From: Planctomycetota bacterium
GTDB lineage: Bacteria; Planctomycetota; Phycisphaerae; Phycisphaerales; UBA1924
Direction of reading: 5' to 3'
Assembly (NCBI GenBank): GCA_017303555.1
Contig: JAFLCN010000005.1
Coordinates: 1 to 64,000, forward strand
Length of the DNA: 64,000 bases
Shown: positions 1 to 19,735 of the stretch, in pieces
Layout of the letters: each line of letters begins with the position of its first letter
Numbering within the stretch: the first letter of the stretch is position 1
Made by a program: the position numbers and the translations under genes
Notes under the pieces: generated by a model
Seen by the model: only the letters and a program-made list of their open reading frames with translations
Databases searched by the model: none
Told to the model about the DNA's origin: nothing

Positions 1-968
1 GGGGGGGGTCCAGTGGCGGCGGGAGCGGCCCGGGCGGCTCGGGTCCCGGAGGCTCCGGCCCTGGTGGTTCTGGGCCGGGAGGGTCGGGCCCCGGGGGAAG
101 CGGGCCGGGTGGTTCTGGCCCGGGCGGCTCCGGGCCGGGTTCCAACTGCGTGCTGGCCGGGACGCCGGTGCGTTTGGCCTCGGGCCAGACCGTGCCGATC
201 GAGCATCTCAAGCCGGGCGACCGGGTCGCGGCGCTCGATGTGGCGGGCCTCGATCGAGATGTGCCGTGGCGAGCCCAGTACCAGTGGCTGCGTCAGCGAG
301 CCGAAGCGGTGCTCACGCCAGTCACCGGCTCCGTGGCCAGCGTCAAGGTCGGCACGCACGATGGGTTCATCACCATCAACGGTCGCCTGCGGCTCACGCC
401 CGAGCACCCGGTGCTCCTGCGCCGCGGCGAAGAGGTCGGGTTCGTCTCGGCGGAGTTTGTGCTCGTCGGCGATTATCTCGTGCGGCGCGACCTCAGCGAG
501 GAGCGCGTCGAGACGATCGCCCGCGCCGGTGATCGCGTCACCACGGTTGCGGTGCATGTGCCCGGGCTCAACGTGTTCCTCGCCGACGGCGTGTGGGTCC
601 ACAACGACATGCCCGCGACGCAGGCAACGGGATCGGGATCGGCTTCTGGTTCGGGCTCCGGTTCTGGCTCGGGATCAGGCTCCTCCAGCGGCAGCGGGTC
701 CGGCTCCGGCAGCGGCAAATCCAGCGGCTCGTCCATGTCGAGTTCTGGAAGCTCGTCGGGATCTGGCAGTTCGTCTGGTTCATCGAGCGCCAGCGGGAGC
801 GAAAGTGGCTCGGGCCCGCCCGGCTCAGGCTCGGGGTCCGGCAGCGCCCAGCAGTCCGTGGCGCTCGGTGAGGGTGCATCGTCGTTCATCGAGGGCGGCA
901 TGGAGGGCGTGCCTCCCGCGAAGTGGCAGCAGAGCGGTTTGAGCAGCGAAGAAGAGGTGAAGGCATGA
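1..968 (+). CDS. Hint (bacterial intein-like) domain protein, 5' partial
   Basis: The reading frame is open at the left edge (codons from base 3), so the N-terminus is missing. About 45 visible residues are GPGGS pentapeptide repeats. A Hint domain then starts at a Cys (codon 147-149; NCVLAGTPVRL) and runs about 153 residues to VWVHN at 594-605, followed by Asp. Blocks typical of intein-like folds are visible: the Cys1 block, a central TPEHPVLLR block and the terminal His-Asn. About 80 Gly/Ser-rich residues follow, then a 40-residue charged tail. Family knowledge: such domains autocleave or splice secreted proteins; a non-nucleophilic residue after HN fits A-type BIL domains rather than a canonical intein. 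The next gene starts inside its stop codon (ATGA). The host protein's job is unknown. Confidence 0.8.
   Translation, partial: GGSSGGGSGPGGSGPGGSGPGGSGPGGSGPGGSGPGGSGPGGSGPGSNCVLAGTPVRLASGQTVPIEHLKPGDRVAALDVAGLDRDVPWRAQYQWLRQRAEAVLTPVTGSVASVKVGTHDGFITINGRLRLTPEHPVLLRRGEEVGFVSAEFVLVGDYLVRRDLSEERVETIARAGDRVTTVAVHVPGLNVFLADGVWVHNDMPATQATGSGSASGSGSGSGSGSGSSSGSGSGSGSGKSSGSSMSSSGSSSGSGSSSGSSSASGSESGSGPPGSGSGSGSAQQSVALGEGASSFIEGGMEGVPPAKWQQSGLSSEEEVKA
3..137 (+). repeat. 15-nt tandem repeat encoding GPGGS
   Basis: About seven to eight degenerate copies of a 15-nt unit (ggcccgggcggctcg-like) encode Gly-Pro-Gly-Gly-Ser repeats directly before the Hint domain. Third positions vary while the peptide is preserved, so selection appears to be on the protein. 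The array continues past the left edge. Confidence 0.85.
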
Positions 969-1588
969 TCCCGAAGGTCATCTACACGGCCGACTTGTCC
1001 GAGTCCCCTGATCGTCAGCGGCTTGCCGCGTGGAAGCACGCGTGGCAGACGCTGCATCCGGAGTGGGACGTCGTCACGTTCACGCTTGCAAGCCGGCCGC
1101 CGATCCTGAACCACGATCAGTGGCAGCAGACGCTCGACCTCAGCGAGCCCGCGGCGTCGGCGGCGCGGCTGAATCTGCTGCGATACGAAGTGCTCGCCCG
1201 CGAGGGCGGCGTGTTCGTCGATCCCGATCGCCTGCCGCTGCGCTCGCTCGATGTACTCGTCGCCGGCGTCGGCGCATTCTGCTCGACGATCGCCAGCCAC
1301 GGTGCGAGCCGTCCGCACATGCTCTCGCCGTCGATGCTCGGTGCGACGCGGAATCATCCGATACTCTGGCACGCGATCCGCGACCTGCCGCACTCGGTGC
1401 TGGTCTATCGCGGTGTGTGGGACCAGAGCGGGCCGGGGTTCCTCACACGCGTGGTCCGCGACCACGGACACTTCCGCGACGTGGTTCCGTTCCACTGGGC
1501 GCTCTTCGAGCAGGGCGAAGAAGCCGCTAAGGCCCACGGCGGCGCGTTCGGGTTCGTGACCGGCAAGACGGCGGAGGCTGCGGCTTGA
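965..1588 (+). CDS. DXD-type glycosyltransferase (GT32-like)
   Basis: A 207-residue protein starting IPKVIYTA, like the N-terminal strand of GT32/TcdA-like sugar transferases. The region around residues 78-92 (REGGVFVDPDRLPLRSLD) matches the GGxYxDxD motif that binds the metal-nucleotide-sugar complex, here Asp86-Pro-Asp88. The start is the ATG in the ATGA overlap with the Hint gene, preceded by a GAGG-type site. It overlaps the next gene in the same way, so the three genes are probably co-translated. It is clearly paralogous to the next gene but more diverged at the N-terminus, where the usual HQIWLG segment is replaced by YTADLSE. The acceptor is unknown. Confidence 0.7.
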   Translation: MIPKVIYTADLSESPDRQRLAAWKHAWQTLHPEWDVVTFTLASRPPILNHDQWQQTLDLSEPAASAARLNLLRYEVLAREGGVFVDPDRLPLRSLDVLVAGVGAFCSTIASHGASRPHMLSPSMLGATRNHPILWHAIRDLPHSVLVYRGVWDQSGPGFLTRVVRDHGHFRDVVPFHWALFEQGEEAAKAHGGAFGFVTGKTAEAAA

Positions 1589-2259
1589 GCACCACCGCAA
1601 CCGCCACCTCGATCCCGCGGGTCCTGCACCAGATCTGGCTGGGCAAGGGCGAGATGCCCCTGCACCAGCGGCGCTGGCGTCGCCGCTTCGCCGAGATGAA
1701 TCCGCACTGGCAAATGCGGCTGTGGACCGACGACAACCTGCCGCCGATCCTCAACCGCAACGCATGGGCGGCCTGCGGCAGCGTCGGCGGCACGCCCGGC
1801 TGCGTGATGCGCTCGGACATCCTGCGGCTGGAACTCCTCGCCCGCTTGGGCGGCGTCTACCTCGACACCGACGTGAAGCCGATCCGTCCGCTCGACGAGA
1901 TGTGCCCGCCCGAGGTACGGGCGTGGGCCGCCTGCGAACAACTCGACATCGTCTCCAATGCGGCGATGGGATTTCCGCCCAATCACCCGGCGATGTGGCA
2001 CGCAGTGGCGATGATCGAAGAGTCGTTCTTCGAGCGGCGGTACGTCGGCGATCAGGCGGGGCCGGGGCTGCTCGCTCGCGTGGTCTCCCAGTACGACGAC
2101 GTGGCTCTCTACCCGCCCGCGTACTTCCACCCGACCGTCGGGGAGTCCAAGTCCAATCCCGATGCGAGACACTTCCTTCTGGGCGCGCACCTCTTTGCGG
2201 GGACTTGGGTGGAAGAGAATCGGCCGAAGCACAGAGTCTTGTGGAACGCAAATGCATAA
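1585..2259 (+). CDS. Glycosyltransferase, GT32 / DXD sugar-binding family
   Basis: A 224-residue protein with family landmarks: IPRVLHQIWLG at residues 10-20, MRSDILRLELLARLGG at 75-90, and the DXD motif VYLDTDVKPI with Asp94 and Asp96. Family knowledge: members transfer a sugar from a nucleotide donor to glycans or proteins, often in surface polysaccharide synthesis. The start is TTG, overlapping the upstream stop (TTGA). It ends five bases from the convergent copA stop with no visible terminator. Placement after another DXD enzyme and a Hint protein suggests an operon modifying a secreted protein; this is inference. Confidence 0.8.
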   Translation: MSTTATATSIPRVLHQIWLGKGEMPLHQRRWRRRFAEMNPHWQMRLWTDDNLPPILNRNAWAACGSVGGTPGCVMRSDILRLELLARLGGVYLDTDVKPIRPLDEMCPPEVRAWAACEQLDIVSNAAMGFPPNHPAMWHAVAMIEESFFERRYVGDQAGPGLLARVVSQYDDVALYPPAYFHPTVGESKSNPDARHFLLGAHLFAGTWVEENRPKHRVLWNANA

Positions 2260-2263
2260 AAGC

Positions 2264-4741
2264 TCAACGGGAGTGGCGTAACCGAAGACTGTTGAGCACC
2301 ACGCTCACGCTGCTGAACGCCATCGCCGCGCTCGCGATGATCGGCGATAGCAACCAGCCCGTGAACGGGAACAGCACGCCTGCGGCGACGGGGATACCAA
2401 CAACGTTGTAGATGAACGCCCAGAAGAGGTTCTGGCGGATCGTTCGCATGGTCGCGTGCGAAAGAGCGATCGCCTGCGGCACGGCGCGGAGATCTCCACG
2501 CATGAGCGTGATGTCCGCCGACTCCATCGCCACATCTGTGCCGGTCCCTACGGCAAGGCCAACATCCGCCTGCGCCAGCGCGGGTGCATCGTTTATGCCG
2601 TCGCCCACCATCCCCACGATGTGCCCCTCGGCCTGGAGCGCCCTGACCTTGTCGGCCTTGTCCTTGGGCAGCACCTCGGCGAAGACCTGATCGACGCCCA
2701 CCTGCGAGGCGACGGCGTCGGCGGTCCGGCGGTTGTCGCCCGTCATCATCACCACCCGCAGGCCCAGCCCGTGCATTGTTGCGATGGCGTCCTTGGATTC
2801 GGCCCGCACCGTGTCGGCGACGGCCACGATCCCGGCCTCACGCCCCTCGATCGCGACGAACATCGGCGTGCGGCCCAACGCCGCCAGTTCCGCCGCCTTG
2901 TCCGCGAGCGTGATCGCGATGCCGCGTTGCTCCAGCAATGCCGCCTTACCGACGAGCAGCCGTTTCCCATCCACGGTCGCCTCGACACCGTGACCGACGA
3001 CGGCCTGGAACTGAGATGGCTCGACGAGCCGAGCGTCATGCGCCGTGGCCTCGCGGACGATCGCAGCGGCGAGCGGGTGCTCGCTGTGCTGCTCCGCCGA
3101 GGCCGCCAGCCGCAGGAGTTCCGGCGCATCAAAGCCCGCCCCCGCTGCCGGAATCACGTCCGTGACCGCGGGCTTGCCGTGCGTGATGGTGCCAGTCTTG
3201 TCGAGCACGACCGCGGTCAGCTTGTGCGCGGTCTCCAGCGCTTCGCCGCCCTTGATAAGGATGCCCTTCTCGGCCCCGCGGCCCGTGCCGACCATGATGG
3301 CCGTGGGTGTGGCCAATCCGAGGGCGCACGGGCACGCGATGATGAGCACCGAGACCGCCGTGACCAGCGCCATGCTCAGCCGCGAGTCCACAGGCGATGC
3401 AAACCACCAGACCACGAACGTCACGAGGGCGATCGCGATGACAATGGAAACAAACACGCCGCTGATCTTGTCGGCCAGACGGGCGATCGGTGCCTTGCTT
3501 CCCTGGGCCTCCTGGACCAGTCGCACGATCTGCTGGAGCGCGGTATCGGCTCCGACCTTGGTCGCCACCAGCCGCAGGGCTCCGGTGGTGTTCATCGTCG
3601 CGCCGAACACAGTGTCGCCGGCCTTCTTCTCAACCGGCACGCTCTCGCCCGTGAGCATTGACTCATCAACCGCCGACTGGCCGCTTTCAACGGTGCCGTC
3701 CACCGGGACTTTCTCGCCGGGGCGGACGAGCAAACGGTCACCTACGACGACGGCCTCGATGGGCACATCGCGTTCGACGCCGTCGCGCAGCACCCGGGCG
3801 GTCTTGGCCTGCAGGCCGATCAACCGCTTGATCGCAGCTGTTGTCCGGCCGGTCGCGCGGGCCTCAAAGTACTTGCCAAGCAGGATGAGCACGATGATGA
3901 CCGCGGCGGCCTCGTAGTACACCGGCACCATCGTCATCCCGCCCATGCCAACCGTCTCGGCGCTCGCGGCGTGCGCGGCCGCCGCCGTGTGCGATGCACC
4001 GCCCATCACACCAGCAAAGAATCCCGGCCAGATCGTTGCCGCGAGCGAATAGAGGTACGCCGCGCCGGTGCCCATCGCAACCAGCGTGTCCATGTTCGCG
4101 CTCAGGTGCCTGAGGCCCTTCCACGCGGAACGAAAGAACTGGGCCCCGCACCACACCATGACCGGCGTCGTGAGCGCGAGCTGGAGCCAGTTGATCCAGG
4201 GCACGTTGAACGCCTCGATCTTCCCGTGCGACATGGCGATGACCAGCACCGGCAGCGACAGGGCCGCCCCGACGATGGTCTTGGTCAGGAGGCGCTTGGC
4301 CTCGGCCTCGCCCACGTTCATGTGCGCCGAGTGATCGTCACCAGGCGCGCCGCCGTGGCCCGCGTGGGAGCCCGCGCCCTGCGCTGCGAGCATCGCGGCA
4401 TGGTCGTGAAGATCGTGCCCGTGCGGCGGGCTCATGCCCGGGTGCCCTCCCGCGGCAGCCGCGGGCACAATCGCCTTGTACCCGATGTCGTCCACCGCCT
4501 TGGCGAGTTTCTCCGGCCCCGTCGCCGCCGGGTCGTACTTCACCGTCGCCACTTTGGTGGCGAAGTTGACGCTCGCCGAGGTGACGCCCGGTTGCTTGCC
4601 CAACCGCTTCTCGATCCGATTCGCGCAGGAGGCGCAGGTCATCCCTTCGATCGGCATGTCGGCCCGTTCGCTGGTCGCTTTGGCGATCGTCTCCGTCGGT
4701 GCGGCCGCCCCGCCGTGCTGATGTTCATGGGCGTTCATCAT
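2264..4741 (-). CDS. copA: Copper-translocating P1B-type ATPase
   Basis: 825 residues. Exports Cu(I)/Ag(I) from the cytoplasm using ATP. In order: an N-terminal HMA domain with GMTCASC (Cys36/Cys39), a His-rich linker of about 45 residues (about 100-145, with HGHDLHDH and DDHSAH), transmembrane helices, the TGES actuator loop, the CPC metal site (near residue 469), the phosphorylation motif DKTGT (Asp514), a Ser-Glu-His-Pro loop and the hinge [11 protein letters not shown] plus HMA defines the P1B-1 (monovalent) class. The start is the first of two ATGs, behind AAAGGA. It is last in the copZ-like/csoR/62-aa/copA unit, 27 bases after the previous gene. Confidence 0.95.
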
Positions 4742-4768
4742 CGTCGTCCTTTGTCTGTCGGGCCGATC

Positions 4769-4957
4769 TCAGGGCGTGGTCGCTGCTGTCGTCCGCTCTG
4801 CTGGCGAGCGCGAAGCGGGCTTGGCCGCGTCGTCCTTCTTGAGCACCGCTCCGGCGATGAGCGCTCCGACCACCACTGCACCCAGAATCAAGGGCACGAA
4901 CTTGCGCCATCCCGTCGCCGGGGGCTTGTCATCATGGCATCCGCAGTTGCAACTCAT
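4769..4957 (-). CDS. Small Cys-rich single-span membrane protein
   Basis: 62 residues: a short Cys/His head (MSCNCGCHDD), one hydrophobic helix (about residues 20-39, PLILGAVVVGALIAGAVL) and a polar tail. The start has GAGG six bases upstream. It lies between csoR and copA with gaps of about 25 bases, so it is part of the copper operon. A membrane-anchored cytoplasmic CNCGCH cluster suggests metal buffering or delivery to CopA. No known family was recognised; the role is inferred from composition and position. Confidence 0.65.
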   Translation of the reverse strand: MSCNCGCHDDKPPATGWRKFVPLILGAVVVGALIAGAVLKKDDAAKPASRSPAERTTAATTP

Positions 4958-4981
4958 CGGGCACCTCGCATTCCAGTTCGT

Positions 4982-5401
4982 TCACCGCGCGACCTTGGCG
5001 ACCAACTCCAGCAGTTCCTCGATCATGTCGTCCCGCCTGGCACCATCCTCGCACATGGCGGCCACGGCGCAGTGTGAGAGGTGGTTGCGAAGCAGGTTCT
5101 TGGCGACCGAGCGGAGTGATTCCTGCACCGCCGCGGCCTGCTGGATGATGTCGGCGCAGTAGCGGTCCTCCTCGATCATCTGCGCGATACCGCGCACCTG
5201 CCCCTCGATCCGGCGCAGGTGCTTGAGGTTCGCGGCCTTGATGGCCGCATCGACACCGACCGCATGTGCGCCCGGACCCACGCCGTCACGGGTTTGGCCG
5301 ATGACCGAACCCGCGCCCGGCCTGCACCCACACGCGGTGCCGTTCAACGCAGGCTGCGCTGCACGCTCGGAGACACCCTTGCTCGATTTGCCTTTGGCCA
5401 T
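4982..5401 (-). CDS. csoR: CsoR-family copper-sensing repressor
   Basis: A 139-residue all-helical DUF156-type regulator. The family motif LKHLRRIEGQVRGIAQMI is present, as is the Cu(I) triad in CsoR order: Cys82 (DRYCADI), His107 and Cys111 (RNHLSHC). Family knowledge: apo-CsoR tetramers bind a palindrome containing a G/C tract and release it on Cu(I) binding. Unusually it has an N-terminal extension of about 50 residues with a CGC motif before the helical core. The ATG at 5401 (MAKGK) is preferred because GGAG lies eight bases upstream; the ATG two codons earlier is too close. Candidate operators lie at 5827-5844 and 15557-15573. Confidence 0.92.
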   Translation of the reverse strand: MAKGKSSKGVSERAAQPALNGTACGCRPGAGSVIGQTRDGVGPGAHAVGVDAAIKAANLKHLRRIEGQVRGIAQMIEEDRYCADIIQQAAAVQESLRSVAKNLLRNHLSHCAVAAMCEDGARRDDMIEELLELVAKVAR

Positions 5402-5437
5402 GACCATCGCTCCTTGGTTCGATGCTTCACCACACAC

Positions 5438-5806
5438 TCACCGGCAGCACCCGCCAGAGGTCTTCGCGCTGCCCTCGCTCTGCGGCATGGCCAACCCGCC
5501 GCCCGGGATCGCGTTCCTCGCTCCGCCGCAGCACCCGCCGCCGCTCTTGGCTGGCTTCGGCGATCCCGCGCCTGCGGCATCGCCCACCGCCTTCGCCGGA
5601 TACCCGGCCTCGTCGAGCGCGGCCAGCGCCTTGCCCGCCGCCCATCCGTCGCTGGCTTCAATCACTGCCGAACCCATCTCCACCGACGTGACCTCCACCC
5701 CTGGCACCGCCGAAAGGGCCTTGGTCACCGCCTGTACGCAGTGCCCGCAGGTCATGCCGTCGATGCGGAGCGTGGTCGTGTTGTTGGTGTCCGTCGTCGT
5801 GTTCAT
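5438..5806 (-). CDS. HMA-domain copper chaperone, CopZ-like
   Basis: 122 residues. The first 75 form one HMA ferredoxin-like domain with GMTCGHC (Cys20/Cys23) and the expected VTKALSAVPGV and ALDEAGY segments. CopZ proteins of this type hand Cu(I) to CopA and CsoR. The C-terminal 45 residues are a Gly-rich tail with two CC pairs (GGGCCGG and SGGCCR), unlike a standard 70-residue CopZ. The start has AAGGAGAT upstream. It is the first gene of the csoR-copA unit, directly below a promoter carrying the CATACT-C6-AGTATG palindrome. Confidence 0.85.
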   Translation of the reverse strand: MNTTTDTNNTTTLRIDGMTCGHCVQAVTKALSAVPGVEVTSVEMGSAVIEASDGWAAGKALAALDEAGYPAKAVGDAAGAGSPKPAKSGGGCCGGARNAIPGGGLAMPQSEGSAKTSGGCCR

Positions 5807-5824
5807 GCAAATCTCCTTGGCGGA

Positions 5825-5852
5825 AGCATACTCCCCCCCAGTATGTACGTCC
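5825..5852 (-). promoter_or_regulatory. Promoter of the copZ-like/csoR/copA unit
   Basis: Minus-strand -35 TGGACG (5852-5847), 16-base spacer, -10 TATGCT (5830-5825). The start codon of the HMA gene follows 19 bases after the -10. The spacer and -10 are covered by the candidate CsoR palindrome. Confidence 0.55.
5827..5844. promoter_or_regulatory. Candidate CsoR operator
   Basis: Perfect inverted repeat CATACT-CCCCCC-AGTATG overlapping the promoter of the copper operon. A C/G tract flanked by inverted TAC/GTA-like arms is the known layout of CsoR operators. A second site with the same ATACT/AGTAT arms lies at 15557-15573. Confidence 0.7.
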
Positions 5853-5881
5853 ACCGGATGTGACCGGTTCGCACAACACGT

Positions 5882-7270
5882 TCATTGGGCCACCAACGAT
5901 GGGATCCTCCCGCCCGCCGCCTGCTCCAGCGCGATTCGGGCAAGCAGTGCATCTCGTTCCAGGTCGTTCAGTGTGCGACGGGCGTCGATCACCTCCCTCT
6001 GCGAGTCCAGCAGTACCGTCACGTCGGCCTGCCCGGACTTGAGCGCGGACTCCGCGAGCGTCAGGTTCCGCTCGGAGATTGCAAGCACGGTGGAGCGGTA
6101 CTGCTCCGCGAGCCGCGAAGCGCTGTCGAGCTCGATCCAGGCGACCCGGGCTTCCCGCACCGCCCGCTGCGAAACCGCCTCGTAGTTGCCGAGGGCGACG
6201 CGGGCGAGCGAGCCGGCCTTGGCGATCTGCGCAGCGTTGGTGTCGAAGATTGGGATGCCGACTTCGATCACCGGGCCGATGGACTTACTGCCGTCCGTCT
6301 CCCGCTCGAAGTCGGCCCCGAGCCCGAAGTCCTTGAGGCGGCTCTTCTCTTCGATGGAGAGGTCGGCACGCTGGGCCTCAACGATGGAACGTGCGGCAGC
6401 AACGTCCAATCGCTGCGACCCCGCGAGCGCGATGACGGCGGCCTCGTCGATTGCGGCGATATCCGAGACCCCCGTACTCGCCTCGACCGTCCACTCCGCG
6501 CTCTCGGCGGCGAAGCCAATCAACTCCAGCATCCGGCGTCGTTCCTTGGCAAGGTCGCGGACGACGATCGCCCGCTCGGCCTGCGCCTTGGCGAGTTGCT
6601 GCCGGGCACGGTTGACATCCAGCGGCGTCCCCTCGCCGCCGCGGATGCGGGCATCCAGCGAGTCAATGCTCTTCTGGATCGTGGCGAGGTTCTCGTCGGT
6701 GAGAGCGACCATCCGCTGACCGAAGTCGATCCGCGTGTGCGTGGACTTCACCTCGGCCACGAGTCGAAGGGCCTTGTCGGAGATGTCCAGCACGGTCTGG
6801 TTGAGCCGGGCATCCGCGGCCTTGATCTTGCCGTCACGGAGCCAGAGGGCGGTGAACGACTGGACGATTTGCGCCCCCACGAACGAGCCGCCGCTCACCG
6901 GGTCGAAGGGGAATCGCAGCGTGAGCCCCAGTACGGGGTTCGGCAAGAGGCCCGCCTGCACGAGGTCGGCGCGCGACGCCGCGATCTGCTCGACCTCGGC
7001 TCGGATCTCGCGGTTGTTGCGGAGCGCCATCGCCAGCGCCTGCTCGACCTTCAGCGGCGAGCGTCCGTCCCAGGACGTGAGCGATGCTTCCCACGCTTCG
7101 GTCCACACTGGCGCGATCCCGGAGCGTTCGTCCACCGTCGAAGCGGCGCGGTTGATGTCGGGCTTGGGGTCGAGCGAAGCGCACCCGCCCGCCAACGCAG
7201 CGAGCGCGAGGACCATCGCGGCGGGTGTGCGGCTCGAAAGAAAACGCTGACGGATCGGCTGGCGCATCAT
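5882..7270 (-). CDS. Outer-membrane efflux channel lipoprotein (CusC/TolC type)
   Basis: 462 residues. A signal sequence ends in a lipobox (ALAGGCAS), so a lipid-anchored outer-membrane protein is expected. The body is the usual OEP duplication: two long helical repeats, each with VEQALAMALRNNREI- or RLDVAAARSIVEAQ-like segments. With the RND pump and membrane-fusion protein upstream it completes a tripartite export channel. The ATG at 7270 is chosen because GGAG lies nine bases upstream; a TTG start five codons earlier is possible. It is the last gene of the long metal-export unit and ends just before the promoter of the copZ-like unit. Confidence 0.88.
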   Translation of the reverse strand: MMRQPIRQRFLSSRTPAAMVLALAALAGGCASLDPKPDINRAASTVDERSGIAPVWTEAWEASLTSWDGRSPLKVEQALAMALRNNREIRAEVEQIAASRADLVQAGLLPNPVLGLTLRFPFDPVSGGSFVGAQIVQSFTALWLRDGKIKAADARLNQTVLDISDKALRLVAEVKSTHTRIDFGQRMVALTDENLATIQKSIDSLDARIRGGEGTPLDVNRARQQLAKAQAERAIVVRDLAKERRRMLELIGFAAESAEWTVEASTGVSDIAAIDEAAVIALAGSQRLDVAAARSIVEAQRADLSIEEKSRLKDFGLGADFERETDGSKSIGPVIEVGIPIFDTNAAQIAKAGSLARVALGNYEAVSQRAVREARVAWIELDSASRLAEQYRSTVLAISERNLTLAESALKSGQADVTVLLDSQREVIDARRTLNDLERDALLARIALEQAAGGRIPSLVAQ

Positions 7271-7333
7271 GCGAAAGGTCTCCAAACGTGAATCGGCCCG
7301 CGCCGCGTCGGCGGGGCGGGACGTGTGCGTGGA

Positions 7334-8119
7334 TTACTTGTGCTCGTGACCCGGGGTGCTTCCGTGCCCGGCATTCCGCGCGGCGGGGGCTGCCGCATCG
7401 GGCTTCTTCTCCGCCCGGCTCGACCAGTGCAGGTGTGCAATCTTGGGTGTACCGCCCTCATCCACGACGACGTAGGTCACGGCAGCCTTGAACGTGCGTG
7501 GGGCGTCGGGGTGATTGGTATCGGGCACGGTGAACGAGCCGATCTGCCTCACGATCGAGGTCGCACCGAATGTCTGCACGTCTTCCTTCGTCATGGTCAC
7601 GGCGAAGCCCGGCATCTCCTTGAGCTCGGGCATCAGGTGGTGGTCGCGGTACGTCTCCCACGTCCCTTCATCGCCCGCGTTCTCGATCACCGTTGCGCGG
7701 CCCTTGTCGAGGAAGAGAGCGTCGAGCGCGGCCACATCTGCTCTGCCGCACGCTGCCAAGTACTCGCGGGCGATCTTCAGCGCCGGGCTGTTGAGGGCGT
7801 TGATCGCGGCGACCGCTTCGGGGGCTGCCTTGGTCAAGAGCGCCATCTTGGCCTCGTCGGACTTGCGGTCCCACTTGCGATCGCAGCCTGGACAGCAGAA
7901 CCCGATGGTGACGCCCTTGAACTGGCGCGTGGGTGCGTCGGCATCAACTTCATTCTCCATGATGGGACAGAGCTTGTTGATGGGCTTGGAAGCGGGCTGT
8001 GTCTGGGCGGGCACGGCGGGCTGCTCGGGCTGCGCCGCCAAAGCGGCGGCGGTGACGATGCCCGCCCCGAGCAGGAGCGCGGCGAGCGAGCGGGAGAGCA
8101 TGGCATTGGACGGTTTCAT
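7334..8119 (-). CDS. Exported YHS/TRASH-like metal-binding protein with SnoaL/NTF2-like domain
   Basis: 261 residues with a Sec-type signal (MKPSNAMLSRSLAALLLGAG, Ala-rich cleavage region). Residues about 45-85 form a Cys module: LCPIMENEVD, then GFCCPGCDRKWD. The following 130 residues (REYLAACGRADVAALDALF to YVVVDEGGTPKIAHLHW) resemble an NTF2/SnoaL-like (DUF4440-type) fold. The C-terminus is His-rich (HGSTPGHEHK). The start has GGAG eight bases upstream. It lies between the larger Cys-module protein and the outer-membrane channel, so a periplasmic copper-binding role is likely. No characterised homologue was recognised. Confidence 0.7.
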   Translation of the reverse strand: MKPSNAMLSRSLAALLLGAGIVTAAALAAQPEQPAVPAQTQPASKPINKLCPIMENEVDADAPTRQFKGVTIGFCCPGCDRKWDRKSDEAKMALLTKAAPEAVAAINALNSPALKIAREYLAACGRADVAALDALFLDKGRATVIENAGDEGTWETYRDHHLMPELKEMPGFAVTMTKEDVQTFGATSIVRQIGSFTVPDTNHPDAPRTFKAAVTYVVVDEGGTPKIAHLHWSSRAEKKPDAAAPAARNAGHGSTPGHEHK

Positions 8120-8233
8120 GTGCGTAACTCCGGGAACATTGGAACACAGGGATGGAACGAACCACTGACGGGTCGGCGGTAGCGACCCGCACAAGCCCTC
8201 CGCGCCCGCTCTCGCGCGGCGCGGTGGAGGGGA

Positions 8234-10168
8234 TCACTTTTTCACATACTCGCTGGGATCGAGCACTTCCTTGGGCGAGGTCTTCGCCAGCAGGACGAAC
8301 TCATCGATGCAGGGAGGGCAGCAGAACTCGTAGGTCTTGCCACCGATGATCCAGGTGAACTTGGGGTTGGCCTTGGTCATCGTGATGGGGCACACCTTGT
8401 CCCCGGGCTTGGGCTTCATGTCGTGCTTGGCCATCTTGCCCTTGTACTTGTCGCTCGCCGTCATCGAGCCATTGGCCTTGATGTCGGCTTCGGTGTAGAA
8501 ACCGCCGGGCGTCAGGTACAGCGCCCGCTCCTCGGCGGCATCGACACCCGCGGGCATGTCGTCGTGGCCGCCTGCAGAGTCCGAGCCTGCGTGTCCCGCG
8601 CCCGGCTGCGCGCCGTGCGGCGTCTTGGGCGTCGAGCCCGCGATCGCCGCGACCAGTTTGGCCATCCGTTCCTCGTCCTTGAGCCCGTCCCAGCGCAGCG
8701 CGCAGTCCCCGTCACAGAAGCCGACCGTCTGCCCCTTAAAGTCGCGGGTGTGAAAGGCGTTGACGGTGTCGCCGGTCATCGGGCAGACCTTGTTCACGGG
8801 CGCTGCACCCATCGCGCCCTTCTCGACCGTGAACGTGAAGGGGACGGTCAGGACCTGCTCTTTCTCCGCCGTGCCCACGTTGAACTGGCCCCAGGCCTTG
8901 TAGGTGCCCGGCTCCTTGAAATGGGCCTCGAAGTCCACCTTGGGTCCGCCGGTCTGGGCCGTCGCCTTCGGCGCATCGTGGCCGTGGTCCGCGCCCCCCG
9001 CGTGGTCGTCCTTCTTCGCGTCGTCATCGTGCCCACCGCCCGCGCCATGAGCATCGTGGCTTGCTGCGGCGTGCTCCCCGCCCTCGTGCGGATGGGCGTG
9101 GACGAACTGCGTGCCGTCCTGGCTGATGATGACCAGGTGCCCCATCGCGCCCAGGTACGGGCGGAGCGTGGTCACGGGCTTGCCGTTCTTGGTGATCGTG
9201 AAGGACATGTGGGCCTTGCCGCCCGCCTTGATCGCCCCTTCGGTGTCCAGCGCGACCGTGAACCCGTCGATGGTCTTGGGCTTGTCGGCATCGACCGTCA
9301 GCGGCACGGCGGCCTTGGATGTTCCCGTCGCCGTGACCTTCACCGGCACCACCTGCTGCGGCGAGCCCTTGGGCGTGAAGTCAAAGTACAACGTGTACTC
9401 GCCACCGGTCGGGAAGGTGATGGGCAGGGCGAACGCACCGTCAGCGCGTCGCGTCGGGTGCTCATGTTCGAACCACGAGAGGTCCTTGCTCACGATGAGC
9501 AGGTGCAGCACCTTCTCGTGGACCGTCTCCAGATCCTTGACCGCAGCGCCTTTGGCGTCCTTGAGCGTGAAGACCATCGGCACGGGCTTGCCCGCCTCGA
9601 TGGCCTTGCCGCCTTCACCGGCGACCGCGACCGAGTGCGTCACCAGCGCGGCCTCCGCGCCGTGGGCATGGTCATGCCCGTCGGCCATCGCGGGCGCGAG
9701 GGCCGCGACCTTGGCCGCCGCCGCCTTGACGGGCGCGAACGCCGTCTTGCTCTTGGCGAGATCGCCTCCATCGGCGATGTTGTGCAGGTTGTCCGCCGTC
9801 TCGGCGAGTTCCTTGCCGGCGGCGTTGATCTCCTTGACCTTCTCGCGCGGCACGCCGCTCTCCTTGGCGAGCGCCAGCGCCCCGAGTGTCTTGGCAAGCG
9901 TGGCGACGGCGTTGGCTTTGTCGGAGACGCCCGCGACCGATCCTCCCGCAAGGGTCGAATCCATCGCCTTCACATCAGCGGCGATGCGCTGGGCCGCATC
10001 GGCGAAGGACCCCGCCTTGGCGACCTCGCCGTGGCTGTGCCCGTCATCTTTGTGGCCGGGTTGAGCATCCGAACCGTGACTGTGCTGGGCAAGTGCGTTC
10101 GGCGCAGTTGAGAGCGTGAGTCCGGACACCAACAGCAGGGACAGGACCGAGAGGCGTGGACGATTCAT
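8234..10168 (-). CDS. Exported His-rich protein with two Cys metal-binding modules
   Basis: 644 residues with a signal peptide ending NALAQHSHG. A His-rich start is followed by an Ala/Lys-rich helical region (about 45-165), two YtkA/FixH-like beta domains (about 180-290 and 300-345), a long His/Asp-rich linker (HDAHGAGGGHDDDAKKDDH), then two YHS/TRASH-like modules: KVCPMTGDTV..GFCDGDC and C-terminal KVCPITMTKA..EFCCPPC. It shares this module with the next gene downstream. The start has AAGGAG, and the ATG overlaps the RND pump stop by four bases, implying translational coupling. Probable periplasmic copper-binding protein; the combination was not recognised as a named family. Confidence 0.7.
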   Translation of the reverse strand: MNRPRLSVLSLLLVSGLTLSTAPNALAQHSHGSDAQPGHKDDGHSHGEVAKAGSFADAAQRIAADVKAMDSTLAGGSVAGVSDKANAVATLAKTLGALALAKESGVPREKVKEINAAGKELAETADNLHNIADGGDLAKSKTAFAPVKAAAAKVAALAPAMADGHDHAHGAEAALVTHSVAVAGEGGKAIEAGKPVPMVFTLKDAKGAAVKDLETVHEKVLHLLIVSKDLSWFEHEHPTRRADGAFALPITFPTGGEYTLYFDFTPKGSPQQVVPVKVTATGTSKAAVPLTVDADKPKTIDGFTVALDTEGAIKAGGKAHMSFTITKNGKPVTTLRPYLGAMGHLVIISQDGTQFVHAHPHEGGEHAAASHDAHGAGGGHDDDAKKDDHAGGADHGHDAPKATAQTGGPKVDFEAHFKEPGTYKAWGQFNVGTAEKEQVLTVPFTFTVEKGAMGAAPVNKVCPMTGDTVNAFHTRDFKGQTVGFCDGDCALRWDGLKDEERMAKLVAAIAGSTPKTPHGAQPGAGHAGSDSAGGHDDMPAGVDAAEERALYLTPGGFYTEADIKANGSMTASDKYKGKMAKHDMKPKPGDKVCPITMTKANPKFTWIIGGKTYEFCCPPCIDEFVLLAKTSPKEVLDPSEYVKK

Positions 10169-13100
10169 TGCTGAACTCCTTGATCTGAGGCCGCAGGGCG
10201 GCCAGATTCGGGTGACGCAGAGGCGGACGCGTTTCCACGATCGCTCGCCCCTGCTGGTATGGCGACGGTGGACTTGGTTGAACTCTGAGCGGTGATTGGA
10301 TCGGAGTGGCTTGGTGGGAGTGGCCCATGCTTCTCGGCATGCTCTTTCGCCAACCGTTCCGCAGCCGTCTTGCCGAACCGATAGAAGATCGCCGGTGTGA
10401 CGAAGAAGTCGAGCAGCGTGCTGGTGATGAGGCCGCCGAGGATCACGACGGCGACCGGATACAGGATCTCCTTACCCGGCTCGCCCTTGCTGAGCACCAG
10501 CGGGATCAGGCCCAGGCCCGCCGTGACAGCGGTCATGAGCACGGGGGCGACGCGCTCCTGGCTGCCCCGGATGATGAGGTCCTTGCTCCAGGTCTGCCGC
10601 TCCTCGGTCATCAGGTGGATGTAGTGGCTGACCATCAGCACACCGTTGCGGGTGGCGATGCCCGTGAGACTAATAAAGCCCACCAGCGAGGCGACGCTGA
10701 ACGGCTCGCGGGTGATCGCGAGCGCCGTCACGCTGCCGATGAGCGCGAAGGGCACGTTGAGCATGATCTGGGCCGCCACCATGCCGGAGCGGTAGTGCGT
10801 GAAGAGGATGACGAAGATGGCGATGAGCGATCCCGCACCCAGCACGAGCAGCAGCCGTGTGGACTCCTGCTGCGCCTCGTACAGCCCGCCGTACTGGATC
10901 GTGTAGCCCTGGGGCAGCGGCACGTCCATGGCGATGGACTTCTTGATCTCCTCGACGGTCGAGCCCAGGTCCCGCCCGCGGACGTTGGCGGAGACGACGA
11001 TGCGGCGTCGCAGGCTCTCGCGCTGGACCTCGTTAGGACCGAGTTTCTCTACGATCTCGGCAACGTCCTGCACGAGCACGATCGCCCCCGTGGGCGAGAC
11101 GAGCCGCACCAGCCCCAGCGCCGCCGGATCGGTCCGGTGATGGTCGTCGAGTGTCAGCGTGATGTCGAAGACCTTCAGGCCGTCGAGCACCTGGCCCACG
11201 ACCTTGCCCTTGGTGGCGGTCTCCATCGCGTCGGTGAGCGACTGCGGCGTGAAGCCGACACGGGCCGCCGCCTCGCGGTTGACGCTGATGTGCAGCTGCG
11301 GCACGAGCACTTGCTGCTCGACCTGCAGGTCGGCGACGCCGGGGATGCCCTCCATCGCCGCCTTGGTCTGGTCGGCGAGTGTGCGGAGCGTGCCGAGGTC
11401 GTCGCCAAAGATCTTGATGGCGACCTGGGCGCGGACACCCGAGAGCAAGTGCTCGATGCGGTGGCTGATGGGTTGGCCGATGCCTGTCGCCACGCCGGGG
11501 AACGCCGCGAGCTTCTCCTCGATCATCGTGAAGACTTGCTCGCGGGGAAGGATGTCCCTGACCGGCGGCGGCCTGCGACCGGCGGCCGTCGTGTGCTTGT
11601 CAGGGTTCTTCGCTTCTTCCTTGGTCCAGAAGTCCACCTCGATCTCGCTGGCGTTGACACCCAGCGCGTGCTCGTCCTGCTCGGCGCGGCCGGTGCGGCG
11701 CGCCGTGCTCTTCACTTGCGGGATGGACAGGATCATCTCCTCGGCCTTGGTGCCGAGCTTGTTGGACTCCTCGAGCGAGATGCCCGGTTGCTGCATGAAG
11801 GAGACGACTGCGGTGCCCTCGTTAAAGGGCGGCAGGAACTCCGAGCCCAGCCGCGTGACCATGAACAGCGCCGCCACAACCAGCGCGCCCAGCGTGCCCA
11901 GCACCGCGACTGGGCGCGGCATCGAGACTGAGTACGATTTGAGCGCAAGCCACTTGCAGGCGCGAAGCAGCGGGCCGTCCTTGCCGTGCTCCATACGTTT
12001 GATGCCGGGGAGCAGGTAGTACGCCAGCACGGGCGTGACGGTGAGTGCCACCAGCAGCGATGCGAAGATGCTCACGATGTACGCCGTGGCGAGCGGCGCG
12101 AACAGTCGTCCCTCGATGCCCGGGAGGAAGAACGTGGGCAGGAACACGAGGTTGACGATAACCGTGCCGAGGATGATCGGGTTGCGGATTTCGCTCGAAG
12201 CGTCGAAGACAATCTGTGCGATCGGCTTGGGCGATACAGCGCGGCGGTTTTCGCCCAGGCGGCGGTAGACGTTCTCGACGTCCACGACCGCGTCGTCAAC
12301 CAGTTCACCGATGGCGACCGCCAGCCCACCCAGCGTCATGGTGTTGACGCTCAAGCCCAGCCAGTGGAAGACCAGGAATGTCGTGATGATCGAGAGCGGG
12401 AGCGCCGTGAGCGTGACGATGGTCGTTCGAACGTTCATGAGGAACAAGATCAGAACGATGATGACCAGAATCGCACCATCGCGCAGCGCCTCGACGACGT
12501 TCCCGATGGCCGAGTTGATGAAGTGCTCCTGCCGGAACACGTCGGCATTGATCTCGATACCAGCGGGAAGCGTCGGGCGAATCTGCTGCAGCGTCCGATC
12601 GAGCGCCCTTGTGAGCGTGATCGTGTCCGCGCCGGGCTGCTTTTGAATCGCCATGATGACGGCGGGCGTGCCGTTGTCCGAACCGTCGCCGCGCTTGATC
12701 GTGGGACCCGCTTCGATGACCTCCGCCACGTCGCGCACCAGGACTGCCCGCGGCGGGCTGGCATGGTCGCCAGGCCTTGTGGCGACCAGCGACATGGCGA
12801 TGTCATCAGCGTTCTGCACCCGGCCGAGGTTCCGAACCACAAGTTCCTGCGCGCCGCTGACAACAAAGCCACCCCCAGTGTTCTGGTTGGCTGCGGCGAG
12901 CGCTCGCTCGACATCCTCGATGGTGAGGTCGTAGAGCCTGAGCTTGTCCGGATCAACTTGGACACGATACTGCTTGAGGTCGCCGCCCATCGCCGTGACT
13001 TGAGCGATTCCGGGGATCGACAGAATGGCTGGACGGAGCGTGAACTCGGCGACCGTGCGCACCTCCATCGGGGAGAGCGTCCTACTCGAGACGCTGATCA

Positions 13101-13521
13101 GGGCGATTTCGCCCATGATGCTGGTCGCGGGCGTCATGACCGGTACGACGCCAGGCGGCAACTTCTCCGAGATGGTGCCCATCCGCTCGCTGACGACTTG
13201 GCGGTTGTATTTGAGGTCCGTACCCCACTGGAACTCGACGAACACGATCGAGAGCCCGAGCGAGGACACGCTCCGGACTCGCTCGACGCCCGGAGAGCCG
13301 TTGACGGCGGTCTCAATGTTGTACGTGACCTGGGCCTCGACCTCCTCGGGCGCAAGCCCGGCGGCCTCGGTCATGATGGTCACGACCGGACGGTTGAGGT
13401 CGGGCAGGACGTCCGTTGGTGTCCGCAGCGTCACGTACATTCCGTAAACGGAGACGAGCAACGCGGCGATCAGCACCAGCACGCGGTTATTCAAGGATGA
13501 TCGGATGATCCAGTTGAGCAC
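10165..13521 (-). CDS. Heavy-metal RND efflux pump, CusA/CzcA family
   Basis: 1,118 residues, slightly longer than the usual ~1,040 because of a polar C-terminal extension. It has the HME family layout: TM1 (NRVLVLIAALLVSVYGMY), LPDLNRPVVTIMTEAAGL, a large periplasmic domain, TM4 with AIGELVDDAVVDVENVYRRL, and a second half with TRNGVLMVSHYIHL. TM4 carries the acidic residues used for proton coupling. Family knowledge: such pumps move Cu/Ag or Zn/Co/Cd across the envelope with the adaptor and channel encoded here. CsoR context favours Cu/Ag. The start is GTG. It follows the adaptor by 48 bases and overlaps the next gene. Confidence 0.92.
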   Translation of the reverse strand: MLNWIIRSSLNNRVLVLIAALLVSVYGMYVTLRTPTDVLPDLNRPVVTIMTEAAGLAPEEVEAQVTYNIETAVNGSPGVERVRSVSSLGLSIVFVEFQWGTDLKYNRQVVSERMGTISEKLPPGVVPVMTPATSIMGEIALISVSSRTLSPMEVRTVAEFTLRPAILSIPGIAQVTAMGGDLKQYRVQVDPDKLRLYDLTIEDVERALAAANQNTGGGFVVSGAQELVVRNLGRVQNADDIAMSLVATRPGDHASPPRAVLVRDVAEVIEAGPTIKRGDGSDNGTPAVIMAIQKQPGADTITLTRALDRTLQQIRPTLPAGIEINADVFRQEHFINSAIGNVVEALRDGAILVIIVLILFLMNVRTTIVTLTALPLSIITTFLVFHWLGLSVNTMTLGGLAVAIGELVDDAVVDVENVYRRLGENRRAVSPKPIAQIVFDASSEIRNPIILGTVIVNLVFLPTFFLPGIEGRLFAPLATAYIVSIFASLLVALTVTPVLAYYLLPGIKRMEHGKDGPLLRACKWLALKSYSVSMPRPVAVLGTLGALVVAALFMVTRLGSEFLPPFNEGTAVVSFMQQPGISLEESNKLGTKAEEMILSIPQVKSTARRTGRAEQDEHALGVNASEIEVDFWTKEEAKNPDKHTTAAGRRPPPVRDILPREQVFTMIEEKLAAFPGVATGIGQPISHRIEHLLSGVRAQVAIKIFGDDLGTLRTLADQTKAAMEGIPGVADLQVEQQVLVPQLHISVNREAAARVGFTPQSLTDAMETATKGKVVGQVLDGLKVFDITLTLDDHHRTDPAALGLVRLVSPTGAIVLVQDVAEIVEKLGPNEVQRESLRRRIVVSANVRGRDLGSTVEEIKKSIAMDVPLPQGYTIQYGGLYEAQQESTRLLLVLGAGSLIAIFVILFTHYRSGMVAAQIMLNVPFALIGSVTALAITREPFSVASLVGFISLTGIATRNGVLMVSHYIHLMTEERQTWSKDLIIRGSQERVAPVLMTAVTAGLGLIPLVLSKGEPGKEILYPVAVVILGGLITSTLLDFFVTPAIFYRFGKTAAERLAKEHAEKHGPLPPSHSDPITAQSSTKSTVAIPAGASDRGNASASASPESGRPAASDQGVQQ

Positions 13522-13569
13522 GGGGAGGTTCCTCGATTGGCTGTCGGGCGTTGAGCGTGGACGGTGTGA

Positions 13570-14943
13570 TCAGTGCGAGTGGCCGTGGCCGTCACCAGAC
13601 TTGGCAGGCTCAGCGACGGGTTCGGGAGCGCCGGGCACGAATCCACGGAGCTGCGACAGGCTGAACGCGCCGCTAGCGGCCACGACATCGCCGGGCACGA
13701 GACCCTTGACAATCTCGGTGACCCGGTCATCACGCACGCCGACGGCGACGTCGCGTTTCTTGAAGACCTCATTCTCCCCCTTGCCCTCGCGCACGAACAC
13801 GTACTGCATCGGGCCTTCCTTCACGACCGCCGACGCAGGCACCACGACTGCGCCGTCGTTTGTCGAAAGCACCACGCTCAGGTCTACGAACTGTCCTTGT
13901 CGCAGCAGCCCCTGCGGGTTTTCAACGTCGATGATGACGTGCGCGGTGCGCTTGGACGCATCGATCACGGGGCTGAGGAACCGAACAACCCCTTCGGCAA
14001 CAACCTCGCTCGCGGCTGCCACACCTCTGCGGACCCGTACCTTTGCGTTCGGCGCTGCCTCCACTCGCGAGAGCAGGCCTTCGGGCAGTTCTCCCTCGAT
14101 CTGCACCCGCGAGAAGTCTCCGATGCTCACGATGGGACTTCCAGCGCCGACGCCCTCACCGATCACTGCCGTTCGGTTCACGACCACGCCGTCTAACGTG
14201 GCGAGGAGGCGGATAACACCCGTTGCGTCAGTGCCGGCTCCAGCTGGGAGCGTCGCGCGGAGGGCCTCGACGGACGCCCGCGTGGCCTCGATCTGACGAC
14301 GCAAGGACTCGGCGTCGGTCCTTGCCTGTTCGAGGGAGACCTTGCGGAGTGATGCGTCCGCACGCAACCTGATCGCCTCGGCCCGGCGTTGTGCCAGCAA
14401 GTTGGCCGACACGCTCTCGCCGGCGGACACCAACCGATCCACCTCCGACTCGGCGAGAGCCGCGCTCTGTTCGGACGCAGGAGCCTCGATCTCGATCGAT
14501 GCGATCTGCGACATCGCCCGCCTTTGTTCGGCGCTAAGCCGCTCGGCCTCCGACTCCAGCCGCCGGACCTCGAACAAGGCCCGGGCCAGTTCCGGTGACT
14601 CGACCTCAGAGATCAGATCACCCTTGCGCACACGGTCGCCGGGTTGCACCCTAATCAAGCGGACGACACCCGCGTAGGTGGATGAGACAACGGCAAGCGC
14701 CCCGGGCTGGGCGCGGACCATGCCGGTGAGACGGACGACGTCCTCGACGTTGCCAAAGTCCACCTCGGCGGTCTTGAGCCCGATGGCGAACGCGGTCGCT
14801 TCGGTGACCTTCTTGGGGGCGTTAGGGTCAAACGTCGCGCCCGTGGGCTTGCCGTGACCTTCGTGGGCGTACACAGGAATCAGAATGGCGGCGGTCGCGA
14901 GCGCCAGGGCGCTCGCTCCCAGAACCGCGCGGGAGCGGATCAT
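13570..14943 (-). CDS. RND membrane-fusion protein, CusB/CzcB type
   Basis: 457 residues. Signal peptide (MIRSRAVLGASALALATAAI) followed by a His-rich mature start (HEGHGKP). Lipoyl half-motif around VVSSTYAGVVRLIRVQPGDRVRKGDLI, a long coiled-coil hairpin (about 120-215), the second lipoyl half (LLATLDGVVVNRTAVIGEGV), then beta-barrel and membrane-proximal domains (QGLLRQGQFVDLSVVL). It ends in HGHSH, a likely metal-binding tail. It links the RND pump to the outer-membrane channel. The start has GGAG seven bases upstream. It lies 141 bases below the first gene of the unit. Confidence 0.9.
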   Translation of the reverse strand: MIRSRAVLGASALALATAAILIPVYAHEGHGKPTGATFDPNAPKKVTEATAFAIGLKTAEVDFGNVEDVVRLTGMVRAQPGALAVVSSTYAGVVRLIRVQPGDRVRKGDLISEVESPELARALFEVRRLESEAERLSAEQRRAMSQIASIEIEAPASEQSAALAESEVDRLVSAGESVSANLLAQRRAEAIRLRADASLRKVSLEQARTDAESLRRQIEATRASVEALRATLPAGAGTDATGVIRLLATLDGVVVNRTAVIGEGVGAGSPIVSIGDFSRVQIEGELPEGLLSRVEAAPNAKVRVRRGVAAASEVVAEGVVRFLSPVIDASKRTAHVIIDVENPQGLLRQGQFVDLSVVLSTNDGAVVVPASAVVKEGPMQYVFVREGKGENEVFKKRDVAVGVRDDRVTEIVKGLVPGDVVAASGAFSLSQLRGFVPGAPEPVAEPAKSGDGHGHSH

Positions 14944-15084
14944 GAGCGATCTCCATGAGAGAATGGGTAACCGAGATGTGGGGGGAATGCTCTGGCCCGT
15001 CGCAATGCGAACAGGGTCATGGGCGCGACGAGACCCGCCGCATGTCGAGTTTCGCCCGACAACGGCTAGTCATGGGTCGCAGTG

Positions 15085-15558
15085 CTACACGATGAGCGCG
15101 CAATGCATGCGCAGCAGGCTGGTCGGCGGTCGAGCACACGCCCAGACTTCGCCATTGACGAAGGTGCGGGGAAGCTCGGCAGAAGTCCAATCCGAGGTAA
15201 TCCAGTTAAGCGTCGCAAGGAGAACCGCCGTAGCGAACTCGATGGTCGGCTTCTCTCCCGACATCATCTTCGTCTGATCCTTACCGCAGGTGCAGTCGTG
15301 CGGATCGGAGCCATCATCAGGCGATGTCGGGGTTTCGTGGTGATCGCCACCGGAGCGAGCGGTCTGCGTGCCCGAGTGGTGACACCCGTGGTGATCGTGT
15401 TCGCTCGCCGTGACGTGATGGTCCCTGTCGACCACGGGAGCGGGGCCACAGGAAGTACAGGCCCTTACCCACGAATGGAAGTTGCAGCAGCAGAACGGAA
15501 CCACCAACGCCATGAGCAAGGCGATGAAGGTCCGGAATTGGGAGCTGCGGAATGGCAT
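15085..15558 (-). CDS. Exported Cys/His-rich small protein, first gene of the metal-export unit
   Basis: 157 residues. A hydrophobic N-terminus (FIALLMALVVPFCCC) looks like a signal or anchor. The middle is dense in His, Cys and Asp (DRDHHVTASEHDHHGCHH; DPHDCTCGKD). The C-terminal part has a short hydrophobic stretch and two more Cys. No family was recognised; composition and position at the head of a copper-export operon suggest a metal sponge or sensor. The ATG used lies only about ten bases below the predicted -10 element and has no visible ribosome site, so either the message is nearly leaderless or the Met at residue 16 is the true start. Confidence 0.55.
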   Translation of the reverse strand: MPFRSSQFRTFIALLMALVVPFCCCNFHSWVRACTSCGPAPVVDRDHHVTASEHDHHGCHHSGTQTARSGGDHHETPTSPDDGSDPHDCTCGKDQTKMMSGEKPTIEFATAVLLATLNWITSDWTSAELPRTFVNGEVWACARPPTSLLRMHCALIV

Positions 15559-15573
15559 ACTGTGGGGGAGTAT
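15557..15573. promoter_or_regulatory. Candidate CsoR operator (second site)
   Basis: Inverted repeat ATACT-GTGGGGG-AGTAT overlapping the -10 element and start codon of the metal-export unit. The arms are identical to those of the site at 5827-5844, and both have a G/C tract between the arms. Confidence 0.7.
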
Positions 15574-15598
15574 ATCGGCCTCCCAGGGAGTACGTCAA
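15569..15598 (-). promoter_or_regulatory. Sigma70-like promoter of the metal-export unit
   Basis: Minus-strand -35 TTGACG (15598-15593), 18-base spacer, -10 TATACT (15574-15569). One of the best consensus matches in the window. The spacer contains a second small palindrome, CTCCC-A-GGGAG. Confidence 0.65.
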
Positions 15599-15735
15599 CA
15601 GCCCATGTGAAGTTCGACAGCCCGTAAAGGATCGTCGGACGGGAGATGGCCGTCGCGTGTAAACCGGCCCTTTCAGCCATAATTTCCACATCGAACCGAT
15701 AGAAAGGGTTCGTGAGGGTTGCGGATACGGAGTTC

Positions 15736-15775
15736 GCCCTGGTTTCCTCCGGAAATCAGGGCTTTTTCTTTTTTT
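15736..15775 (+). terminator. Strong intrinsic terminator, plus orientation
   Basis: Twelve-base-pair stem with one G-U pair (15736-15747 with 15751-15762), a three-base loop, then a run of Ts broken by one C. It reads on the plus strand, but no plus-strand gene was found upstream, so its parent transcript is unknown. It may insulate the copper block from the element to the right. Confidence 0.75.
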
Positions 15776-16100
15776 GACGTGATGGCAGGGCGTTCCCGAG
15801 AGACCGATTCTCGCCAAAAAAACTGCGACTTTCGCCGTGGCGACGATAGAACCGAGCACGGGTCGGGGGTCACCTGGTCGCCTTCACCGTCGTTCCGATC
15901 GACGCTGATCCAGGGCGCTCTGAAAGCTCGGATTGCTCTTGTTGACGGATTCGGGTGGTGTTCACACCCGTATCGATCGGCGTTGCGATCAGGACGCAAT
16001 TATCCTGCGGTATGGGGTGCGCTCGGATGTCAACGCACGCAAGTGTCTCTGAGAAAACGGCGCAAGCGCGTGGGACATAGGGCAGCAGGAGCGCTGAATA
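15776..16100. other. Intergenic region left of first element
   Basis: Between the terminator and the GTG-started gene to the right. No convincing gene, tRNA or clear att duplication was seen. It ends with AGGAG nine bases before the GTG start. Confidence 0.4.
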
Positions 16101-17021: not shown

Positions 17022-17080
17022 GACGCGCATGGTTGCCGCGGTGACGAAACACGCAGAAAACCTGTGCGTTCAATGGGTTG

Positions 17081-17314
17081 ATGACACCCACCTTGACGCA
17101 ACCGTCCCGCGCCGCAGATCAACCGATCGCTGCATTCTCCTTCGAGATGGCGAAGATCCTCGCGGTCGGCTTCGACCGCGCTCTCTCGCGCCGCGGCGGC
17201 CGCACTCTCGCCGACTTCGAGCATCACGAATCTGCCACGCGGTTGCTTGACCGGGCCGAGCCGAGCGACCTCAGTCCTTCGAAATCGTCGCGAGACGAAG
17301 GAGGGCTGTCGTGA
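17081..17314 (+). CDS. Small protein preceding DUF2924 gene (cassette 1)
   Basis: 77 residues ending in the TGATG overlap with the DUF2924 start. The central segment (EMAKILAVGFDRALSRRGGR) resembles the central part of the small protein at the same place in the second cassette (IAAIFAEGIRRRRRQ), and both contain a later EH and TRL. No good ribosome site is visible at this ATG, so the true start may be internal (MAKILAV). Function unknown; coupling to DUF2924 suggests a constant cassette member. Confidence 0.5.
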   Translation: MTPTLTQPSRAADQPIAAFSFEMAKILAVGFDRALSRRGGRTLADFEHHESATRLLDRAEPSDLSPSKSSRDEGGLS

Positions 17315-19732: not shown

Positions 19733-19735
19733 CCG

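Follow-up and report, generated by a model that had tools for sequence, protein, structure and literature searches.

The characterised copper-sensing CsoR repressors of Streptomyces lividans, Mycobacterium tuberculosis and Bacillus subtilis share the PF02583 fold and a Cys-His-Cys ligand set, control copper export as well as themselves and, in most cases, act on TAC-N9-GTA dyads, which are inverted in M. tuberculosis (PMC3902906). Known CsoR operators are of type 2 (ATACCCC-N-GGGGTAT), whereas RcnR operators are of type 1, TACT-G6-N-AGTA (Tan et al., PMC3902906). Escherichia coli RcnR senses Ni/Co, has other ligands and reads tandem sites (Iwig & Chivers; PMC3902906, PMC5146963). In the Gram-negative Bradyrhizobium, the CsoR-cueA divergon has a CsoR box of type 2, TATACCCCTACCGGGTATA, lying over the -10 element, and its mRNA is leaderless and begins at the ATG; no RND operon is reported under this box (PMC5057107). 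Mesorhizobium NreA, which responds to nickel, controls a single operon, nreAXY, again with a leaderless transcript, from a type 1 operator with arms TATCC..GGATA located in the -35/-10 spacer (PMC12724321). In Pseudomonas putida, also Gram-negative, expression analysis indicates that CsoR represses copper and czc genes; in the part of that report available, EMSA is described for copA-I only, with neither an operator motif nor direct control of an RND promoter (PMC11978298), and these expression data were all that our literature search returned on CsoR acting directly at an RND promoter. As of 2025, no DNA-bound structure of a CsoR/RcnR protein had been reported (PMC12724321). The papers searched assign CsoR mainly to P-type export from the cytoplasm, and in Gram-negative bacteria they place RND efflux across the envelope under two-component systems. 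The tripartite CusCFBA system of E. coli, an RND system of the CusA/CzcA family, adjoins CusRS and is controlled by it.

The window analysed here is a stretch of 64,000 nucleotides from the genome of an uncultured bacterium of the Phycisphaerales, Planctomycetota (4.06 Mb in 42 contigs, 94.5% complete). Its minus strand carries, from 15558 to 2264, genes for P157, a CusB-like adaptor and a CusA-like permease, then those for a 644-aa protein, a protein with a SnoaL domain and an outer-membrane efflux protein, followed by site 1 and by copZ, csoR, a 62-aa protein and copA. Two palindromes with identical arms and 7-nt spacers, ATACT-N7-AGTAT, stand upstream of the two units: site 1, CATACT-CCCCCCC-AGTATG (5827-5845), before copZ-csoR-copA, and site 2, ATACT-GTGGGGG-AGTAT (15557-15573), before the RND unit, with the G tract in opposite orientations at the two promoters. 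The gene neighbourhoods, the sequence and coordinates of site 2 and the identical arms around a G/C tract are as the initial annotation had described them; for site 1 it had the arms and the place right, but its spacer of six C (5827-5844) is one base short. Its central proposal, that both palindromes are operators of one CsoR regulon controlling the copZ/copA and RND units, is in our view very probably correct: a single PF02583 gene, its Cys-His-Cys residues, the recurrence of the palindrome at these two gene starts in dozens of relatives, across genera, and the covariation of repressor and operator all point to it. We infer that CsoR binds, that copper is the inducer, where transcription begins and what the RND pump carries. 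Features are collected in Table 1.

Table 1. Predicted genes, operators and promoter elements of the copper block (window coordinates).
Feature	Position	Strand	Remarks
copA-like P1B ATPase	2264-4741	-	domain matches
62-aa membrane protein	4769-4957	-	conserved between csoR and copA
CsoR-family repressor, PF02583	4982-5437	-	ligands C94-H119-C123 (151-aa numbering)
copZ-like chaperone	5438-5806	-	HMA domain and Cys-rich tail; start ATG 5806, preceded by AAGGAG
Weak -10, TATGCT	5825-5830	-	partly made by operator right arm; TATACT in most relatives
Site 1, predicted operator	5827-5845		coding strand TACT-G7-AGTA; upstream of copZ-csoR-copA; rarity and conservation in relatives
ECF-sigma-like element, GAACC-N16-CGTA	5846-5870	-	abuts site 1
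Weak sigma70-like -35, TGGACG	5848-5853	-	17 nt from TATGCT; operator within spacer
Outer-membrane efflux protein (OEP/TolC-like)	5882-7285	-	domain matches
286-aa protein, weak TRASH-like and SnoaL-like domain	7334-8194	-	domain matches
644-aa secreted protein	8234-10168	-	weak YtkA/TRASH/YHS similarity; kept in RND unit
CusA/CzcA-family RND permease	10165-13521	-	lacks CusA Met triad; domain match and alignment
CusB-like periplasmic adaptor	13570-14943	-	domain matches
P157, secreted Cys/His-rich, 157 aa	15085-15558	-	first gene of RND unit; conserved in relatives
Site 2, predicted operator	15557-15573		coding-strand right arm AGTATG contains P157 start codon; rarity and conservation
-10, TATACT	15569-15574	-	overlaps operator left arm
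ECF-sigma-like element, GAACT-N16-CGTA	15591-15615	-	upstream of site 2
-35, TTGACG	15593-15598	-	18 nt before TATACT

The repressor scores 88.9 bits against PF02583 (Trns_repr_metal; cut-off 22.8), and no other PF02583 gene was found in the genome. In the alignment, its C94-H119-C123 residues fall on C36-H61-C65 of the M. tuberculosis protein and match the solved CsoRs; Cys-His-Cys is present in 72 of the 73 CsoR loci of the family, the remaining one being broken by gaps. The gene is linked to copper export genes in its own operon, with the operator upstream. A csoR start at ATG 5407, giving 141 aa, is likelier than the 151-aa open frame because this ATG is preceded by AAGGAGCG. The copZ-like protein continues after its HMA domain into a Cys-rich C-terminal tail (GGGCCGGA..GGCC).

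The two sites differ from the type 2 operators typical of characterised CsoRs, a feature that does not define the protein: they are of type 1, TACT-N7-AGTA, with T/A beside the dyad and the TAC-N9-GTA spacing kept. Site 1 has the RcnR form TACT-G6-N-AGTA, and its core, TACTGGGGGGGAGTA, is identical at 15/15 positions to one of the two E. coli RcnR operator sites in the rcnR-rcnA region; site 2 departs from this form in its tract (GTGGGGG), and each promoter here has one site where E. coli has a tandem. This likeness favours a different switch, RcnR-like and responding to nickel/cobalt or to mixed divalent metals, in which the RND unit would export a divalent metal and only CopA would handle copper. 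The glutamine pair (QQ) that the window repressor shares with RcnR fits such a switch, and so does the RND permease: it belongs to the CusA/CzcA family (TIGR00914, 782 bits vs 701) but carries S/A/H at the positions of the Met triad of E. coli CusA (M573/M623/M672), so that copper efflux by the window pump rests on regulation and context. We nevertheless consider a nickel/cobalt switch very improbable. The ligand set of RcnR, with His64, is absent, Cys123 of the CsoR trio occupying the His64 position, and the repressor shares its operon with copZ and copA. Moreover, a second type of RND permease, with M/M/M, lies behind the same P157 and operator in about ten relatives (loci L039, L038, L121, L125, L124, L133, L138, L170, L128 and L210), which supports a regulon that takes in Cus-type pumps in these relatives, the substrate of the window pump being putative. 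The metal would be copper, judging by the repressor ligands and by copZ and copA, and the best reading is a copper-type, Cys-His-Cys CsoR acting on type 1, RcnR-type operators.

Within the family, the outer base of the operator sorts with CsoR residue 99. Loci with Q99 have TACT..AGTA (n = 32), mixed sites (n = 8) or none (n = 4), while those with T99 have TACC..GGTA wherever there is a site (n = 22), and none in 4. Position 99 lies directly before the equivalent of S. lividans CsoR Q81, whose replacement by Ala left no detectable binding profile (PMC3902906); the QQ residues also occur in E. coli RcnR and FrmR. On the CsoR tree residue 99 and the operator type each change once, as one evolutionary event, and the covariation is therefore not counted as independent statistical proof; it is consistent with direct readout of the DNA.

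The promoters place the operators differently. Site 1 lies in the short gap between the outer-membrane efflux gene and copZ (5807-5881), in which we found no terminator-like site, so that RND-unit transcripts may run on through this gap. Its sigma70 match is weak, and a consensus scan did not recover the -35 (TGGACG). Several relatives have TTGACR-N17-TATACT upstream of copZ: the operator falls between the two boxes, and its right arm, AGTATACT, makes up the -10; Mesorhizobium NreA offers the same placement of a type 1 operator (PMC12724321). At site 2, only 10 nt separate the end of TATACT from the P157 ATG. No Shine-Dalgarno sequence was seen there, for which reason the P157 mRNA is probably leaderless, and Bradyrhizobium csoR (PMC5057107) and Mesorhizobium nreA (PMC12724321) provide precedents. 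An intrinsic-terminator-like hairpin with a T run lies just upstream of the P157 promoter (15736-15762, plus strand); no gene was identified before it.

P157 itself contains the motifs PFCCCNFHSW and DCTCGK and ends in TSLLRMHCALIV. It is matched in 46 of the family's genomes, and the orthologues retain the same start and a signal-peptide-like N-terminus. Searches with P157 against Pfam and NCBIfam gave no match, and those against PDB chains nothing above a chance-level hit. It is the first gene in two kinds of RND operon. A paralogue with 35% identity in the same genome (G000:C19:50275-50718, locus L192) lies near a contig end and lacks the palindrome. Further down the unit, the 644-aa and 286-aa proteins (7334-10168, minus strand) share a similar TRASH/YHS-like segment, seen as cross hits and weak Pfam matches.

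The related records are Phycisphaerales/Planctomycetota MAGs; the family set comprised 163 genomes and the class set 397. In the family set, ATACTNNSSSSSAGTAT matched 57 sites in 34 genomes; the reversed pattern, used as a control, gave about 3. Among these sites, 28 are upstream of csoR, 24 upstream of P157 and 2 abut copZ at contig ends, leaving 3; thus 54/57 closely precede either copZ-csoR or the first gene of an RND operon. A looser count of upstream regions, allowing up to one arm mismatch, places a site at 40 csoR loci and 32 P157 loci. At distant csoR loci the motif turns into the classical ATACCCN..GGGGTAT. At P157, the start codon lies inside the palindrome even in relatives with as little as about 31-40% protein identity, and in the larger P157 loci CusB/CusA genes of two different RND types come next. 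Outside the family, the complete module, with its two sites, is present in one genome (G330) and the P157 part in two (G493 and G382); most other matches in the class set are of mixed spacer and resemble background. One isolated G-tract match, ATACTGGGGGGGAGTAT, at position 4220 of L237 (G221, another family), overlaps a recombinase-like ORF, with no copper gene seen nearby.

These alignments also bear on a narrower reading, under which CsoR controls copZ-csoR-copA alone and the palindrome at P157 is the site of another regulator or simply the shape of a promoter in which TATACT is followed by an AGTATG start. Since the left arm, TATACT, is the -10 and the right arm has the ATG, these functions alone would fix some of the letters; they leave out, however, the C-rich spacer, the AGT before the ATG and the fixed spacing, all of which are conserved as well. 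The genome also lacks a second CsoR-family gene. A site does occur at P157 in G061 and G085, draft genomes in which csoR was not found, as could be explained by incomplete assemblies; yet among the 8 P157-like loci whose genomes yielded no csoR, 5 lack the palindrome. Restriction of CsoR to the copZ-csoR-copA unit thus seems to us very improbable.

Both palindromes are rare. The window contains ATACT-N7-AGTAT only at sites 1 and 2 (none in 100 dinucleotide shuffles), and these are also its only TACT/AGTA palindromes with spacers of 3-9 nt. Across the genome there are four TACT-N7-AGTA matches, with a G/C tract only in the two sites, and seven palindromes with a 6-nt spacer, none with a G tract; the motif is thus not common at random positions, an outcome that would have counted against the initial annotation. 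Although the motif is short, this rarity and its reappearance at the same pair of gene starts, set against the reversed control, led us to reject functionless chance palindromes, whose likelihood we regard as negligible.

Under the single CsoR regulon that we favour, apo-CsoR would bind both sites when copper is low. At site 1, in the -35/-10 spacer beside the ECF-like element, it would keep copZ-csoR-(62-aa)-copA off, csoR included; at site 2, over the -10, the probable transcription start and the P157 start codon, it would shut off P157-CusB-CusA-P644-SnoaL-OMF. Binding of Cu(I) would release CsoR from both sites, and P-type export and envelope RND efflux would rise together. Comparison among genomes gives good support to this reading, in which a copper-type CsoR is predicted to use RcnR-type operators and to join P-type export with RND efflux. 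One CsoR over both export routes, kept across a Planctomycetota family, would represent a different wiring of copper defence, and this family, in which repressors that are close relatives go with either operator type, may offer a natural experiment on DNA recognition by CsoR/RcnR proteins.

The two promoters share a second element, GAACY-N16-CGTA, whose two occurrences in the window are precisely at these promoters (two copies arose in 5 of 100 shuffles). It resembles what we take to be an ECF sigma promoter (GAAC at -35, CGT at -10, about 16 nt apart). After removal of near-duplicates, GAAC-N17-CGTA was found in 15/48 copZ-csoR and 11/24 P157 regions, compared with 0.12% of random windows, and almost never at other spacings; GAACY-N16-CGTA persists in several relatives whose P157 promoter lacks the TTGAC box. 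As a genome-wide regulon motif it was rejected (21 matches vs 24 in the control), and the weight we give it comes from its conserved position at the copZ-csoR and P157 promoters. CorE of Myxococcus is an example, from elsewhere, of an ECF sigma factor that responds to copper (PMC3107203).

A more speculative history, which may well not hold in full, would combine these observations. CsoR may have moved between type 2 and type 1 operators with the T/Q change beside the DNA-contacting Gln, and gained the RND operon through an operator that doubles as the -10 and start codon of a leaderless gene, while ECF sigma input at both promoters might join a second, possibly envelope, signal.

As to the wider setting, searches found no tRNA anywhere in the window, nor an Rfam match within positions 1-20000. 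Beside the copper block, the plus strand between 17790 and 23590 holds serine-recombinase-like, primase-like and DNA-methylase-like ORFs, named from reading the ORFs only; this segment is likely a mobile element.
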